From positions 1 to 21,247 of IMG/VR virus record IMGVR_UViG_3300042507_000547: 21,247 nucleotides of DNA; one strand, 5' to 3'. Made by a program: the position numbers and the translations under genes. A model generated the notes under the pieces. The model saw nothing but the letters and a program-made list of their open reading frames with translations, searched no databases and was not told where the DNA came from. Positions 3,851-11,859 of the stretch are shown piece after piece. This DNA comes from a virus. Each line of letters begins with the position of its first letter. Position 1 is the stretch's first letter.

Positions 3851-5356
3851 TTATGCAACCCGCGAGAGGTTTCTTTTCAACGGCTGAGACCACTTCTGAC
3901 TCGTATTCGCACCAAACATCGAGACGGCAGCGTCGCTTGAAAAGGTCAGGACGAAGCTATCTGCTTTATCAGGAGACTTCAAGCCACGCTTTCTAATGTC
4001 ATCCTTGCCCTCTACCTGCATCTTTCCGCTAGATGTAAAGAAGTACCTGACAGTCGCCAGTTCAGCCACCAGCTCCTCGTCATTGGGGATACGACAGTCA
4101 CGCGCCTCGAACCATGCCTTTGCCTTGTACCAAAGCTCTGCACGCAAGTTCCTGTAAGTTGTCCCCATCGCTGGAGACTCGGAGACATTGATGCCGCGAG
4201 CTGGCAACCCAAGTTCTCTCAGACGGTCAACGACACCAGCACCCAAACCAATCGAGTCCACCATGATCTCGTGTGGTCTTTGACTCGGTGCTAAGGCTTC
4301 CCACTCTGCGACGACTGCACCAGTCAGTTGCATCAAGTCCAAGTTCTTCCAAGTCTTTGTGGGTTCTATGAGCGCGTTTCCCTGTCTTTTGCTTAGAGCA
4401 CTTCTGTCGCCACCAAAGCGTGCCACATCCAATCCCCAGATCAGCTTGGCGTGCTGAGATGTCTCGACATCCCTGTGCTTTGCCAGCTCCAGTAACTCCA
4501 TCGGGATGATCGTGTCGTCGTCAGACCTTGGAAACTCGCCTAGTACCCTGATCCTGTAAGCGTTCGACTCCTCACCATACCTAGCCTTCATCTCTTCGAC
4601 ATAGGCATCTGAGACCCTTGGAGAGTCCACGCAAGAGACTTTCATCGTCACCCAGTCATTTGCAAGTCGGTTCTGGGTGTCGTAGAAGAATCCGCTAGAG
4701 CGTACAGGGTTGCCCAAAAGTAGGGTCACGGCATTGTGTCCAGACATACTTCCCGCAGCAGCCTCGAAGACAGCCTCTGGGATGCCAGATGCCTCGTCAG
4801 CCACCAGCATCACATTCTCGCTGTGGACACCTTGCAGGGCTTCGGGCTGCTCTGCCCTACTGGTTCTGGCTGAGACAAAGGCTTCGGTTGCTGCCTCCTT
4901 GACCTCGATCCTGTCCTGCTTGACCTCCAACATATCCCTCAAGGTCTCAGGCAACTCTTTGACCCAACGCTTTAGTTCCGCAAAGAGCGCGTCGTATAGC
5001 TGGCTGCTTGTGGGGGCGGTGACGACAACCTTGACGGGGTATCTGAGCAGTAAGTACCAGATGATCGCCCAGCTCGCTGCTGTGGACTTGCCTACGCCAT
5101 GACCTGATCTGACTGAGATTCTGCGGTTTCCCTTTGCGATGTGCATTAGGAATGTCTCTTGCCAAGTGTCGGGGTTCGCTTTTAAGACTTCCTTTACAAA
5201 GAGGACGGGATTGTTCTTGTAGCGGATGGTGAACGCAACAAAGGGATTCTTGCTGAGTTCGTCTTCCCTCTTGTCTTGGATGCGGTCTATCTTTGCCACC
5301 ACATCGGGGTGTAGTTTCTTTTTATCGTTTTCTTGTGGAATTGATTTTGTTGTCAT
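3851..5356 (-). CDS. terL: Terminase large subunit (packaging ATPase-nuclease)
   Basis: The 501-aa product is the motor that drives DNA into the prohead and cuts concatemers. The N-terminal ATPase shows Walker A SGHGVGKS (84-91), a TAPTSSQ motif after the next strand (113-119), and Walker B VMLVADEAS (182-190) with D187 and E188. TLLLGNP (211-217) is the coupling/motif III region. The RNase H-like nuclease domain begins at WGLDVARFGGDRS (307-319, D310), continues with MVDSIGLGAG (365-374, D367) and ends with SPDKADSF (461-468, D466). These three acidic residues form the expected metal site. Length is normal for a podovirus terminase. The start ATG follows a weak AAGG and an unusual A- and C-rich leader. 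TerS lies upstream across a 337-base gap, which is larger than usual. Confidence 0.96.
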   Translation of the reverse strand: MTTKSIPQENDKKKLHPDVVAKIDRIQDKREDELSKNPFVAFTIRYKNNPVLFVKEVLKANPDTWQETFLMHIAKGNRRISVRSGHGVGKSTAASWAIIWYLLLRYPVKVVVTAPTSSQLYDALFAELKRWVKELPETLRDMLEVKQDRIEVKEAATEAFVSARTSRAEQPEALQGVHSENVMLVADEASGIPEAVFEAAAGSMSGHNAVTLLLGNPVRSSGFFYDTQNRLANDWVTMKVSCVDSPRVSDAYVEEMKARYGEESNAYRIRVLGEFPRSDDDTIIPMELLELAKHRDVETSQHAKLIWGLDVARFGGDRSALSKRQGNALIEPTKTWKNLDLMQLTGAVVAEWEALAPSQRPHEIMVDSIGLGAGVVDRLRELGLPARGINVSESPAMGTTYRNLRAELWYKAKAWFEARDCRIPNDEELVAELATVRYFFTSSGKMQVEGKDDIRKRGLKSPDKADSFVLTFSSDAAVSMFGANTSQKWSQPLKRNLSRVA

Positions 5357-5693
5357 GGGGGAATTGTGCCTTGATTTTTTTTATTTTTTTGTGGGGAGAG
5401 TGGTGCTGTGGGGAGGGGTAGTGGGGGGGGTGTTAAGTCGATAACTGTCGGGGTGCAGTTTCAGCGCCACCCGTCGCGCAGATCGAAGGGGGGGGTAAAC
5501 CCGAATCAGTCAGGCAGAATCGGTTAGTGAGTGACCACTATCATTGCACAGCGCATGAAGCCTAGACATTCGCATATCGTCGTATCTGTCTGCTTTACAC
5601 TATGTTCATTATGTAAAGTTATTTTGCTGTTATCCACAGGTTTGTAAGCATAAATGTGGATAACTCTGCCAGTTTTCACGCAACTGTGGATAA
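5357..5693. other. 337-base non-coding gap between terS and terL
   Basis: No plausible gene is found in this stretch. Its left part has T- and G-rich tracts on the plus strand, including two runs of eight G (5423-5430 and 5488-5495). Its right part has a 7-base inverted repeat (CTTTACA at 5593-5599, TGTAAAG at 5612-5618) and three perfect DnaA boxes. On the coding (minus) strand it would be the leader of terL. Candidate roles are a replication origin, a pac site, a terL control region, or a mixture of these. Confidence 0.7.
5393..5430 (+). other. G-rich stretch with G-quadruplex potential
   Basis: The plus strand has GGGG at 5393-5396, GGGG at 5410-5413, GGGG at 5415-5418 and eight G at 5423-5430. 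The part 5410-5430 alone meets the common G3+/N1-7 quadruplex pattern. On the minus strand it is a C-rich leader just upstream of terL. Whether it folds, or only reflects a low-complexity patch, cannot be told here. Confidence 0.4.
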
Positions 5694-5726
5694 CTAGGAC
5701 AACTTCTCGCTGTTTTCTGTGGATAT
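5630..5726. promoter_or_regulatory. Cluster of DnaA boxes (candidate replication origin)
   Basis: Three sites match the 9-base consensus DnaA box TTATCCACA exactly: 5630-5638 on the plus strand, and 5655-5663 and 5685-5693 on the minus strand (read as TGTGGATAA on plus). A fourth, 5718-5726 (TGTGGATAT), differs at one base and lies inside the end of terS. The starts are 25, 30 and 33 bases apart. An AT-rich stretch and an inverted repeat (5593-5618) lie next to them. Three exact 9-mers within 64 bases are very unlikely by chance. This is the arrangement of a DnaA-dependent origin or of a DnaA-regulated leader. Confidence 0.6.
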
Positions 5727-6134
5727 GTCCTCGACCACCTCAATGCGTCGCAATGCGTCCAGCCTCATGCCAGACAGGTTCACTTGCACGCTAGGCATCT
5801 TGTTCTGCGCGTATGCAGCAGGATTCCAGCGCTCTGCCACCCATTGCCTCGTCTGGACGCGCAGACGCGCCTTGTTGACCTCCTCGATGTCCGTTTCATC
5901 GGCAATTTCGATCATTTGCCCTACGATATGATCCGCTGCTCGCGCACGCACGCGAGAAAGGAAGCCTTCCTGCGCTGGTGAGTCCATCCATTCGGTCAGC
6001 GCTTTCTTGCTGACACCGAGCGCCACACATATCCTCGTCTCGCTCATTCCAGCCTCAAACATATTGGTGATCTGTTCAATCGGCAGCGTGTTCAGCAACG
6101 CAATGTCGTGAACCTTCTTTTTATTCCCAGCCAT
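5694..6134 (-). CDS. terS: Terminase small subunit (Sf6-like)
   Basis: This 146-aa protein is the likely DNA-recognition subunit of the packaging enzyme. Residues 18-52 form a helix-turn-helix (IEQITNMFEAGMSETRICVALGV, then SKKALTEWM). This is followed by a helical oligomerisation part with RARAADHIVGQMIEIADE (63-80) and RLRVQTRQWVAERWNPAAY (90-108). The last block, R-x-W-x-A-x-x-x-P-x-x-Y, is typical of Sf6 gp1-like small terminases. The ATG at 6134 has a strong GGAGG seven bases upstream. The C-terminal coding region contains a near-match DnaA box, and its stop lies immediately beside the third perfect box. It sits upstream of terL in the same orientation, as expected, but is separated from it by a 337-base gap. 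Confidence 0.82.
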   Translation of the reverse strand: MAGNKKKVHDIALLNTLPIEQITNMFEAGMSETRICVALGVSKKALTEWMDSPAQEGFLSRVRARAADHIVGQMIEIADETDIEEVNKARLRVQTRQWVAERWNPAAYAQNKMPSVQVNLSGMRLDALRRIEVVEDISTENSEKLS

Positions 6135-7045: not shown

Positions 7046-9097
7046 TCACTTCTTGATCTGCACAACCACCGAATTAGATGATTTTGCGCCATCATCATCC
7101 GCATATACCGCCCAGCACAATTCACCATAAATGATTACTTTTTGTAAATCAGCAAGATCGGCTTTAACGCGATACCAAGCCTTATTTAGCGTTGCTGGCA
7201 TGACATCGCTGCCCATGCGCTTCTTGAATTCGTCCCTCCATTGGTCAATCTTTATGCACTTATTGCGCATTCCATCGACCACCTGCATCTCGCCAAACTT
7301 CTTAATTGCGTCGTGCAGACAGGACAACGCAAGCCGTTGATTCATTCCAGCGCCTGTCCTGTTTGGTGGTGTTGCTTGGTTAGGACGATCTGTATCCATC
7401 TCCTCATCTGTCTCAACCGCCAGACTGGATGCACCTTCAAAGTCGATAACTCCACTTGATCCAGTCGTGACCTCGACCATCTTGAAGCCTATGCGTTGAC
7501 CGTCTTCCCCGTCCTTCTGCTTGGAGATGTGGAGTATTCCTTTTGGCGGTTGAGCGCCTTCGATCCTGATAATCTCCAGCTCTGTGTCGACAGCGCCTAA
7601 GAGACTGCTGTGACCCCTGAGTCCTTTGGTTGCGTCCTTACCAGCGTGGTGAACCACCAAGAGAGAGCACTCATACTTGCCTTGGATTGCGCCAGCAGCC
7701 GTGATGAATGCACCCATGTCCTCACTTGCGTTCTCGTTACCACCGCCAAACGCTCTCGCCAAGGTGTCGATGATGATCATCTCGAAGTGAATCTCTCCCA
7801 CAGCCTTCAAATCATCAATGGCTTGCACCAAGTCCTTGAGGTCCGTCTGACTACTCCTGAGGTTGACTTGCCGTCTCAGGAAGTAAACAGGTGTTCCTTC
7901 TGGCGTGCCGTGGTGAATCTTCAGCGCCTTGATGCGCGTTCCGATACCGCCATGACCCTCACCCGCGATGTACAGGACTGCACCTTGCTTCGCTATCTGG
8001 TTGCCGAGGAATGGTCTGCCTGTGGCGATGCACTCTGCAATATCGAGTGCGACGAAGCTCTTAAACGAGGCAGGAGGAGCGTACAGAGCAACGAATGACC
8101 GTTGCGGAATAACGCCTTGCACCAGCCACTCGACAGGTTCGTCCTCGATGTCGTCCCACGCCTCGAGCTTGAATCCTTCGCGTTGAAGTGGTGCTTGTGG
8201 CAGCTCCAACTCTTGAGTTTCTTGCGTCTCCACAGAATTATTCAATCTTGCAGGAGTCGTTACATCCAGTTCACTTGCGACTGCTTGCGTGGCTTTTGTC
8301 AGGTCAACCAGCCTATCCTTGTCACCGCCATACTTGTGGACAAACTCGTATGCGTCTTCCTTGATCTCCTCTAACCCAAGGTCTACCACTCGGATACTTT
8401 TTGTAACCGACTTAAGAGCTGCAACTGCCTTCCTTGCGTACTCCCAGCCCACGGTGTCGTTGTCAGGCACTATCGCAATGGTGAGTCCGACTAGGTGCTT
8501 GACCACATCTTCGGGGAAACTGCTTGCACCGTTGTGCGTACAGGTTGCCACCACACCTAGTGACTTGAGAGCGTCGGCTGCCTTCTCGCCTTCGCAAAGG
8601 AATACAGTTCTGCCAGTCTTCCTTGCAAAGTCCACCTCTGGCAAGTTGTAAGGGACGATGTTCGCACCCGTCATTGATGCGTGCCGTCTGCCGTTCTCGT
8701 CCACCCTGTACTGCTTGTATGTCTTTCCCTTTGCGTCGAATGTCTTGTAGCGTTGTTTTATGTGCTGGACTACGCCATCCTCATCGGTGTAGTGCCACTC
8801 CTGTTCTAAAACAGGTTCTTGCTGTTTTGGTAACGGCTTGATCTGGGTGAGGAAGTCTGTCGGATTGGGTAGGTCTGGCAACAACCCAAAGTCCTTCACC
8901 GCATTGAAGACAGACTCCTGAGAGCACCCACTAAAGCACTTGAATAACGGCTTGCCTTCGTCAGTCTCTGACACGCAAAGACTTGGATTCCTGTCCCCGT
9001 TACCCTGCCCGTGACTGCTAACAGGACAGCTCGCCATCCATTGCCCGTTCACCTTCTTTGCGTTGCCAAGCGCTTGCGCTATTTGTTCGGCTTGCAT
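7046..9097 (-). CDS. Primase-helicase (zinc finger, Toprim, RepA-like ATPase)
   Basis: The 683-aa protein likely makes primers and unwinds DNA at the phage fork. The N-terminal zinc module has C24 and H29 (CPVSSHG), GDRNPSL, and C54/C58 (CFSGC). The Toprim domain has FLCEGEKAADAL (167-178, E169) and PDND (211-214), the metal-binding acidic pair. A linker of about 100 residues leads to a RecA-like ATPase: Walker A YAPPASFKS (339-347), IAGEGHGG (377-384), Walker B IIID (441-444), then VVHHAGKD (481-488) and GLRGHSSLLGAVD. This is the AAA_25/RepA-like type. I chose ATG 9097, which has AAGGA five bases upstream and begins right before the zinc module. The frame is open to 9175, but the extra 26 residues overlap a possible small gene and have no site. 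Confidence 0.9.
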   Translation of the reverse strand: MQAEQIAQALGNAKKVNGQWMASCPVSSHGQGNGDRNPSLCVSETDEGKPLFKCFSGCSQESVFNAVKDFGLLPDLPNPTDFLTQIKPLPKQQEPVLEQEWHYTDEDGVVQHIKQRYKTFDAKGKTYKQYRVDENGRRHASMTGANIVPYNLPEVDFARKTGRTVFLCEGEKAADALKSLGVVATCTHNGASSFPEDVVKHLVGLTIAIVPDNDTVGWEYARKAVAALKSVTKSIRVVDLGLEEIKEDAYEFVHKYGGDKDRLVDLTKATQAVASELDVTTPARLNNSVETQETQELELPQAPLQREGFKLEAWDDIEDEPVEWLVQGVIPQRSFVALYAPPASFKSFVALDIAECIATGRPFLGNQIAKQGAVLYIAGEGHGGIGTRIKALKIHHGTPEGTPVYFLRRQVNLRSSQTDLKDLVQAIDDLKAVGEIHFEMIIIDTLARAFGGGNENASEDMGAFITAAGAIQGKYECSLLVVHHAGKDATKGLRGHSSLLGAVDTELEIIRIEGAQPPKGILHISKQKDGEDGQRIGFKMVEVTTGSSGVIDFEGASSLAVETDEEMDTDRPNQATPPNRTGAGMNQRLALSCLHDAIKKFGEMQVVDGMRNKCIKIDQWRDEFKKRMGSDVMPATLNKAWYRVKADLADLQKVIIYGELCWAVYADDDGAKSSNSVVVQIKK

Positions 9098-9195
9098 TCT
9101 TGTCCTTCTAATAGTTCTAATCTCTGCTCCAGTTCGTAGACCCGTTGAGCCAACGCAATAAGTAGCAGCATCCAAAATTCTTGTGTGTTTTCCAT
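9079..9195 (-). CDS. Possible 38-aa leucine-rich small protein
   Basis: A short frame begins at ATG 9195 and ends 19 bases inside the primase gene. The peptide starts MENTQEFWMLLLIALAQRVY, followed by an acidic Leu-rich helix with heptad spacing (ELEQRLELLEG). It could be a short hydrophobic helix joined to a coiled coil. It begins only five bases after the T-run of a strong terminator and has no visible ribosome site, which argues against strong expression. It overlaps the primase start as coupled phage genes do. It could be a leader peptide, a small membrane-linked protein, or chance. Confidence 0.4.
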   Translation of the reverse strand: MENTQEFWMLLLIALAQRVYELEQRLELLEGQECKPNK

Positions 9196-9903: not shown

Positions 9904-11004
9904 TTATTGACCTAAAGAATAGTCACGCGCAAGAGTGAGACCACTAGATTCTTTGCGTGTGAGTGTGTCAATTAAGTCTTTTGATTCTTTGGGCAACAGT
10001 TTGGCTGCCTCAGATGGGCTAATTAGTTCACTAGAGACCAACTTATCTGCTGGGATACCAGCGTCGTGCAATGCGTGCTTTGCTGCTGTCTCGTCAATCC
10101 ACTTGCGGTAGGCACGCTTTGCAGTCATCTGCCAGCCTTTGATAACTGCACCGTCTTCAATGCGTTTGACTGCGTGATCTCTCACGGCATCGATAAACTT
10201 CTCCACAAGAGGAGCGCGATCAAGTAGGTCTGCGATCTGTTCTGGTGTGAGCGTAGTCGCTAAAGACTTCATCTCTTCCTTAGTCATCACCGCAAGGTTT
10301 GGTGTAGCAGCAATGACCTCAAAGCCTTTACGCTGTGCTGGACAAATAGCCTTCGCAGCACACCATTGGCATCCATCCTCTGTTGGCGTGGGTTCGGTGT
10401 CACCTTGTCTGATGGCTTGAATCGCTGGAGTTAACCTCGTCGCTGCCCAGTCGTTCAATTCTTTGAATGTAATCTTGTGAGTGCGAGGTTCACCGTGATG
10501 GGGCTGAATAATCGACAGCTCGATGTTGCTAAATTCAATCTTTGCGTGACGCATAGCACCGATGGCGTATATCTTCATCTGGTCTGAGTCAGCGTCAACA
10601 TAACCTCGTCCAGTTTTGAGGTCTGCAATGACTAAGGTTGACTTCTCGTCGTTCCACGCCACCACATCGGCAGTACCGCCCAGCTCGATGTCCTTGTCCT
10701 TGTACACGGTGACATACTGCTCAACCTTTAGCGTGCCAAGTCTTGACTCCAAGTCCCTGATATGGTTCACATGAGCTGCTGCAAAGTCAGCGTTCTGCTC
10801 GGTGATAAGAATGTCCTTGACCGTCTTACCCACCCAGTCATAGACACTTGAGTTAGTAAGGAATGCAGTCTCAGCCACCTCATGTATCGCAGTACCGATC
10901 TGCGCAGCTTCACCTGCTGTCTGGTAAGGGATGTCTGCACAAAGCCTCACAGATGCAGGACAAGATAGCCAGCGTGTGGCTGCCGATGGGCGTAGTTTGA
11001 TCAT
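9904..11004 (-). CDS. DUF2800 / Cas4-like PD-(D/E)XK exonuclease
   Basis: The 366-aa product matches the DUF2800 group of phage nucleases related to RecB and Cas4. The N-terminus has RPSAATRWLSCPAS with C15, then GTAIHEVAE (37-45) with H41. The nuclease core is GGTADVVAW (109-117, D113), IADLKTG (126-132, D128 and K130) and QMKIYAIGA (142-150, Q142). CQWCAAKAIC supplies C212, C215 and C221, so with C15 there are four cysteines to hold a 4Fe-4S cluster, as in Cas4 and AddB. It likely resects DNA ends for phage recombination, working with the SSB-like protein and the RuvC-like enzyme. Its ATG overlaps the previous stop by one base (TAATG) and has AGGA upstream. The C-terminal third is helical and without known motifs. 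Confidence 0.85.
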   Translation of the reverse strand: MIKLRPSAATRWLSCPASVRLCADIPYQTAGEAAQIGTAIHEVAETAFLTNSSVYDWVGKTVKDILITEQNADFAAAHVNHIRDLESRLGTLKVEQYVTVYKDKDIELGGTADVVAWNDEKSTLVIADLKTGRGYVDADSDQMKIYAIGAMRHAKIEFSNIELSIIQPHHGEPRTHKITFKELNDWAATRLTPAIQAIRQGDTEPTPTEDGCQWCAAKAICPAQRKGFEVIAATPNLAVMTKEEMKSLATTLTPEQIADLLDRAPLVEKFIDAVRDHAVKRIEDGAVIKGWQMTAKRAYRKWIDETAAKHALHDAGIPADKLVSSELISPSEAAKLLPKESKDLIDTLTRKESSGLTLARDYSLGQ

Positions 11005-11201: not shown

Positions 11202-11392
11202 TGTTTTGCTCTCAGTTCTCTTATGGCGTTTGCAGCAAATGCAAAGTAGTTGTCCTTGCCAACTCGCGCCTTGTGCAGTTCGTCGCAGATAGCAGCGCAG
11301 GCTTCGCGTTCTTCGTTCATAGCCCAACGAATAGCATCACGGGTGCTTGCATGACCTTGTATAGCCATCTCAATAATTTCATCTTGTGTCAT
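11198..11392 (-). CDS. Small conserved phage protein (CDEL/AIR type)
   Basis: The 64-aa product begins MTQDEIIEMAIQ and contains NEEREACAAICDEL and a C-terminal AANAIRELRAKQ. I recall this EREACAxxCDE...AAxAIRxR layout from many short phage proteins of unknown function, often next to recombination genes. It has two cysteines (in ACAAIC), no membrane segment and a mostly helical look. It overlaps genes on both sides by four bases (ATGA), so translation is probably coupled to that of the RuvC-like gene. No function can be given. Confidence 0.7.
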   Translation of the reverse strand: MTQDEIIEMAIQGHASTRDAIRWAMNEEREACAAICDELHKARVGKDNYFAFAANAIRELRAKQ

Positions 11393-11859
11393 TTAGCCTG
11401 ACTCCCGAAGTAAGCGATCATGGTTGCGTCAGCCCTGCCAGAGTCCTTAACGCGAGAAAACACTTGCTGGTGTTCTGGATGTAGTTCCATGCACCTGTGG
11501 CGTATAGCGTCCTTACCCTTGGCGCAACCCGTAGCCTTCTGCCACACCAAGGGATTGATGTAGGTGATCGGTACTGAGAAAGACGCAAGTGCGCCTTCAA
11601 TGATTCCAGCAGCTCTGCCGAAGGCATACATACTCGCTGTGCCTTGGTTTGGCATTGCGCCTGTGCGTTCTACAAATGCGTGCGTAGGGGCGAATACCTT
11701 AATGATGGATGCAACGCCCTGCGCAGAGACTTGGCGCTTGTTCTTGCCACCTCTAAGCACCTCCACGATGGGCATATCGACGACCTGCTCAAACTTGCCG
11801 TCAACATACAGAGAAAATGCTCCGAGTGCGCCAACATCCACACCCATCACCCTAATCAT
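11389..11859 (-). CDS. RuvC-like Holliday junction resolvase
   Basis: The 156-aa protein has the RNase H-like resolvase fold. The first acidic site is GVDVGALGAF (6-15, D8). The second is FVERTGAMPNQG (62-73, E64), followed by an SMYAFGRAAGIIEG helix (76-89) that is very typical of phage RuvC-like proteins. VWQKATG (105-111) and the final SGRADATMIAYFG (140-152, D144) complete the set. It would cut branched recombination or replication intermediates before packaging. GAGG is placed well upstream of the ATG at 11859. It overlaps the HTH gene by eight bases, so the regulator and this enzyme are made from one transcript. The length is close to that of RuvC, with no extra domain. Confidence 0.87.
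   Translation of the reverse strand: MIRVMGVDVGALGAFSLYVDGKFEQVVDMPIVEVLRGGKNKRQVSAQGVASIIKVFAPTHAFVERTGAMPNQGTASMYAFGRAAGIIEGALASFSVPITYINPLVWQKATGCAKGKDAIRHRCMELHPEHQQVFSRVKDSGRADATMIAYFGSQAK

Follow-up and report, generated by a model that had tools for sequence, protein, structure and literature searches.

A conserved DnaA-box array beside a putative XerC/XerD site in the packaging operon of a freshwater tailed phage

Genes and features of the locus

The window, i.e. the whole stretch of DNA analysed (21,247 nt), is a 21-kb fragment of a tailed phage from freshwater. The genes for the helicase-primase fusion, the DUF2800 exonuclease and the RuvC-like resolvase lie upstream of the terminase genes terS and terL, which are separated by a noncoding region (Table 1). 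The window and phage C72C1 have in common a CCCCCCC-TTCG motif with a G-rich stretch behind it; this motif or the G8 runs could be a packaging or termination element. The named phages showed no DNA-level match to the window. Rfam matched no RNA element in the window or in six relatives, and a known RNA element was thereby ruled out as a reading of the region.

Table 1. Positions of genes and sequence elements in the window.
Feature	Position	Strand	Description
terL	3851-5356	-	PHROG terminase large subunit, E 3.5e-43
terS-terL noncoding region	5357-5693		337 bp; includes the exact boxes, the putative Xer site and both G8 runs
G8 runs	5423-5430, 5488-5495		C8 on the terL coding strand
Putative XerC/XerD (dif-like) site	5592-5619	+	28 bp; GCTTTACACTA-TGTTCA-TTATGTAAAGT
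XerC arm	5592-5602		GCTTTACACTA
Spacer	5603-5608		TGTTCA
XerD arm	5609-5619		TTATGTAAAGT
Exact DnaA box	5630-5638	+	TTATCCACA; 10 bp from XerD arm
Exact DnaA box	5655-5663	-	TTATCCACA; TTATGCACA or TCATCCACA in some relatives
Exact DnaA box	5685-5693	-	TTATCCACA; directly after terS stop codon; TTGTCCACA in some relatives
Fourth DnaA-box-like 9-mer	5718-5726	-	ATATCCACA, one mismatch; inside terS C-terminus; relatives have GTATCCACA or TTACCCACA, and clade L066-L080 the exact TTATCCACA
terS	5694-6134	-	Sf6-like small terminase subunit; Pfam Sf6_terminase, E 9e-14
Primase-helicase fusion (AAA_25)	7046-9175	-	Likely replicative helicase
DUF2800 / PD-(D/E)XK exonuclease	9904-11004	-	Exonuclease
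RuvC-like Holliday junction resolvase	11389-11859	-	phrog_1770

The DnaA-box array and its conservation

The initial annotation described three exact copies of TTATCCACA between terS and terL and a one-mismatch copy inside terS, and all four were recovered at their positions. Base counts predict 0.16 exact copies for the window, and it holds no further exact copy and no second cluster. With one mismatch allowed the window contains 12 matches, compared to 4.23 ± 1.93 expected from shuffled sequence, and none of the 100 shuffles reached 12. Neither was a box cluster of comparable density detected elsewhere in nine near-complete relatives. The AT content across the first box and the adjoining palindrome is about 0.65-0.70.

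The TerL search of viral contigs confirmed at least 596 relatives, and 80 loci were retained. Among the matches listed, 70 loci including the window had enough upstream sequence and a locatable palindrome beside the boxes. All 70 contained two to four DnaA-box-like 9-mers (at most one mismatch) within 150 bp of the palindrome, a count conditional on the loci having been picked by first finding that palindrome. Four boxes were present in 49 loci, three in 20 and two in one. The suggestion that relatives might keep the boxes while their spacing varies was borne out by the clade L066-L080, where the boxes are spaced differently and retained. In 14 non-redundant sequences of the window clade the box columns were 0.954 identical against 0.864 between the boxes, a value for the boxes that 50 of 5000 random placements equalled or exceeded, and in the second clade the corresponding identities were 0.988 and 0.759. 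Chance origin of the boxes was ruled out by the shuffles, the expected count and this conservation, and the array is under selection.

The distance between the boxes and the dif-like site ranges from ten to a few tens of bp and is steady within tens of bp, while that between the boxes and terL varies from about 200 to 990 bp owing to insertions in the interval. The exception found, L058, has lost boxes and Xer site together; this otherwise close relative carries a different terS-like gene (positions 1927-2355).

Several loci (L023, L034, L036, L042, L045-L047, L049-L052, L054, L055, L058 and L065) have an insertion just before terL, with a conserved stem of the type ACACGCATGGGGATTG...AGTCCCCAGCCGTGTTGGTG; its loop is hypervariable, and terL is usually preceded by CACCAACAAC. 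The insertion, which the window lacks, resembles a structured RNA or a small mobile element; no Rfam match was obtained in the six loci searched. L041 and L043 have extra coding sequence between the Xer site and terL, e.g. an ORF of 129 aa in L041. Contig breaks 45-75 bp before terL were considered as genome ends and rejected: their positions and sequences differ, they fall in a C-rich region, and they are read as assembly breaks. The first 60 positions of L068 resemble an Illumina adapter (CAAGCAGAAGACGGCATACGAGAT) and are probably an assembly contaminant.

The initial annotation had suggested either a DnaA-dependent phage origin or a reading of host replication state that would control terL or packaging. 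The boxes do form a cluster above chance and are conserved, but the GC skew does not reach a minimum or shift at the array, and any origin here is a putative one. After detrending, the minimum is found 4-7 kb upstream of the array, close to the divergent early region, or at a fraction of 0.81-0.90 of the genome when counting starts at the site, so that an origin marked by GC skew is unsupported here. In three genomes checked for the host oriC one or two boxes were found within the 4 kb around dnaA, oriC itself not being located.

The dif-like site and the recombinase genes of relatives

The inverted repeat noticed earlier beside the boxes is real, with 12-nt arms at 5593-5604 and 5607-5618 that are 83% complementary, but a 28-bp site of the Xer type is the better interpretation. 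This predicted Xer-type site was missed by the initial annotation and changes the interpretation of the locus; by sequence comparison it is conserved more strictly than the boxes and has a wider distribution.

When the window was scanned with a weight matrix of the arms only, built from the published table of proteobacterial dif sites (Carnoy and Roten), positions 5592-5619 gave the top match with 15.2 bits. The best score in 60 Markov sequences of the same length was 12.5 bits and the mean 6.6. The site was likewise the top-ranking match of ten other relatives, with 12.2-20.3 bits, and of C72C1 (20.9 bits). Among the 14 non-redundant relatives the XerD arm was invariant (pairwise identity 1.000), and it was thus more conserved than the XerC arm (0.869), the identity of the following 32 bp being 0.617. 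The site has the 11-6-11 layout, and its arms match the dif of the probable host.

A pattern scan of genome contigs gave 96 stretches, of which 80 were examined as chromosomal dif loci. Nearly all of these are titled Comamonadaceae or other Burkholderiales, many of them from freshwater, and their consensus is ACTT[ACGT]ATAC[GA]A TGTATA TTATGT[TA]AAGT. The spacer TGTATA is present in all 80 (the scan pattern left the second spacer position free), and the phage spacer differs from it in every listed phage site. The dif of Rhodoferax ferrireducens is ACTTGATACGA TGTATA TTATGTTAAGT, and a Bordetella XerD arm is TTATGTAAAGT (both Carnoy and Roten, PMC2731167). The XerD arm of the window equals the chromosomal dif arm of freshwater Comamonadaceae at 11 of 11 positions and the XerC arm at 8 of 11, which leaves three mismatches over 22 arm positions to the closest chromosomal site (chance 0.0008 over the window). 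The arms of L046/G407 match one chromosomal dif at 21 of 22 positions (XerC arm 10/11; chance 2e-6). Clade L066-L080 has five mismatches over the 22 positions (chance 0.23) and an exact XerD arm. From the arms only, the host of the window clade is taken to be Comamonadaceae-like.

Also more distant phages have such sites. In C72C1, the TerL of which is 51% identical, AGATTACATAA TGGACG TTATGCGACAA lies between terS and terL and is not accompanied by boxes. The core CATAA-N6-TTATG (at most one mismatch, within 1 kb upstream of terL) was searched in 149 distant loci, i.e. relatives of C72C1 and of MW202879, with windows inside terL as controls. It was present in 74 of the 149 loci and in 0 of the 149 control windows. 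Since cores occur in lineages that lack the array, the site is more widely distributed than the array. Thirteen C72C1-like loci have one exact DnaA box at a distance of 47-48 bp from the core, so the pairing of box and putative Xer site recurs in a second lineage.

As the window is only a 21-kb fragment, gene absences were checked in near-complete relatives. PF00589 matched neither the window nor any of 13 relatives, of which ten are near complete (34-38 kb); like IMEX, these phages thus have no integrase of their own by this search. PF00239 was absent from 12 of the 13, and C72C1 has neither family. The ten near-complete relatives bearing the site yielded neither a tyrosine nor a serine recombinase. 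Conversely, the whole genomes of MW202879, phiM5, MW202496 and MW202711 lack a dif-like site, and three of these four named relatives encode a recombinase. In MW202879.1 (L087), which lacks the Xer site, the stretch between terS and terL holds a gene for a serine resolvase (966-1634), and phiM5 and MW202496 have tyrosine integrases. Across these few lineages one recombination system looks to have been replaced by another. MW202711, with neither a recombinase match nor a dif-like site, counts against the main explanation below. In MW202496.1 (L223), where an integrase is present and the dif-like site absent, the gene at 28052-28519 is annotated as a DnaA helix-turn-helix protein.

Interpretation and comparison with known systems

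The locus combines a box array and an Xer-type site that are conserved and coupled, with host-like arms, a spacer differing from the host's and no recombinase family match in the relatives searched. From this combination we infer DnaA binding, XerCD catalysis and a role in circularisation or resolution, which suggests that the phage borrows two DNA-maintenance systems of its host at one spot. The preferred reading, with a probability of about 0.5, is a host-dependent maintenance module in which the boxes would be an origin or control element, and XerCD would circularise the phage DNA or resolve its multimers. Host DnaA would bind the three or four boxes and form or control a phage origin. Host XerCD would recombine copies of the site on phage DNA, so that terminally redundant genomes are closed to circles after injection or multimers are resolved, and the phage would then need no recombinase of its own. 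The genome of phiM5 has 357-bp direct terminal repeats immediately before terL, where the window group has its Xer site; with a repeat located as in phiM5, each end of the linear genome would carry one Xer site ready for closure. A spacer unlike the TGTATA of the host would limit recombination with the chromosome. The assemblies of four relatives have end overlaps of 121-127 bp in unrelated places, and that of C72C1 one of 225 bp; these fit circular or redundant DNA and may also be an assembler effect. Against the module stand the GC-skew minimum 4-7 kb away, the phage exonuclease and RuvC-like genes, which could circularise DNA by homologous recombination, and the poor overall match of clade L066-L080 to the Comamonadaceae dif arms.

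The main rival is that the Xer site is an attachment site, by which an integrase-less temperate phage would integrate at the host dif via XerC/XerD as IMEX do, the boxes then being the origin of the excised form. The arms match Comamonadaceae dif, some relatives carry integrases, and the window spacer TGTTCA has TGT in common with the host TGTATA next to the XerC arm; CTXphi attP, too, resembles dif on the XerC side (review PMC5357621). This spacer start is common to the window clade and host dif, but the other clades begin with CGT or CAT, and their spacers CGTCCA or CATTCA have little XerC-side homology. The scan of genome contigs with two short peptide patterns found no TerL relative, 401 genomes of the family and 90 of the genus Limnohabitans gave only distant TerL matches (at most 40% identity over long matches), and no window protein was encoded near the 80 chromosomal dif sites (about 3.5 kb on each side). 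The site-plus-flank pattern was found in 0 of the 401 genomes, and no integrated copy at host dif was found, although with one genome per species absence is not proof. Neither a close prophage nor a plasmid form was found in the genomes searched, and an integrated prophage was rejected after the contig, family, genus and dif-neighbourhood searches. Stable integration is disfavoured, and the rival as a whole is possible but rather unlikely.

An unlikely variant makes host DnaA an accessory factor controlling XerC/XerD recombination of the phage genome, which would tie circularisation or dimer resolution to the replication state of the host. A joint complex would require box and Xer site to lie close together at a constant distance, as is seen here and for the single box 47-48 bp away in the second lineage.

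Somewhat less likely still is a plain origin, with the AT-rich palindrome as an unwinding element or a phage-initiator site and no Xer role. Conserved boxes, the AT content over palindrome and first box and a noncoding position adjoining replication genes agree with it, but it leaves the 11-6-11 layout, the host dif arms and the invariant XerD arm unaccounted for. Dif-like sites also occur apart from the box array in C72C1-like and MW202879-like lineages, and the skew minimum is absent here.

That the region is mainly a pac or cos site, the boxes and palindrome being recognition elements of the terminase, seems improbable. Its position between terS and terL, the terminal repeat of phiM5 just before terL and the C-rich and G-rich motifs common to C72C1 would suit packaging, but the repeats are copies of the universal consensus for DnaA and variants of DnaA type, which are as unexpected for a terminase as a dif-like palindrome, and the G-rich hairpin is no more stable than shuffled sequence (fold z -0.11). 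A packaging role of the neighbouring sequence is compatible with the maintenance module. Control of terL or terS transcription by host replication state, which the boxes upstream of terL and overlapping the end of terS would allow, is highly improbable, as terL lies anywhere from about 200 to 990 bp away whereas the Xer site is always within tens of bp.

If the maintenance module works, these phages leave the recombinase function and perhaps that of the initiator to their host, and host XerCD and DnaA would be direct targets for studying phage genome circularisation. The Xer arms could also help in host prediction for uncultured phages.

Filamentous phages, plasmids and genomic islands are well known to carry dif-like sites. 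No report of one in the packaging operon of a tailed phage was found in the open literature as searched in one library. Bacterial and plasmid origin arrays likewise have several TTATCCACA boxes, not all in the same orientation, next to AT-rich sequence, but here the origin is a predicted one, with no adjacent initiator gene recognised and no GC-skew minimum. In P1, Cre/loxP is a recombination site on a tailed-phage genome that serves circularisation and dimer resolution. This is like the role proposed here and, as with cer and psi, an analogy of function; unlike in P1, no phage recombinase was found, no P1-like plasmid prophage was seen, and host enzymes would act. The chromosomal dif of Betaproteobacteria shares with the phage site the 11-6-11 layout and the identical XerD arm TTATGTAAAGT, whereas the phage-borne site has the spacer TGTTCA or TGTCCA instead of TGTATA and is coupled to a DnaA-box array. 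At the plasmid sites cer and psi, ArgR and ArcA are accessory factors, and such resolution sites are recognised by accessory sequences for ArgR, PepA or ArcA. IMEX such as CTXphi, VGJphi, TLCphi and the gonococcal genetic island (GGI) are likewise integrase-less with a dif-like site, but the phages studied here have the packaging genes of tailed phages, no integrated copies found and a spacer that varies by clade. The sites of IMEX, cer and psi have been described (PMC5357621). The plasmid Xer sites cer, psi and pdif have dif-like arms and another spacer too, on elements without a recombinase of their own, whereas here the neighbours are DnaA boxes and the element is a tailed phage.
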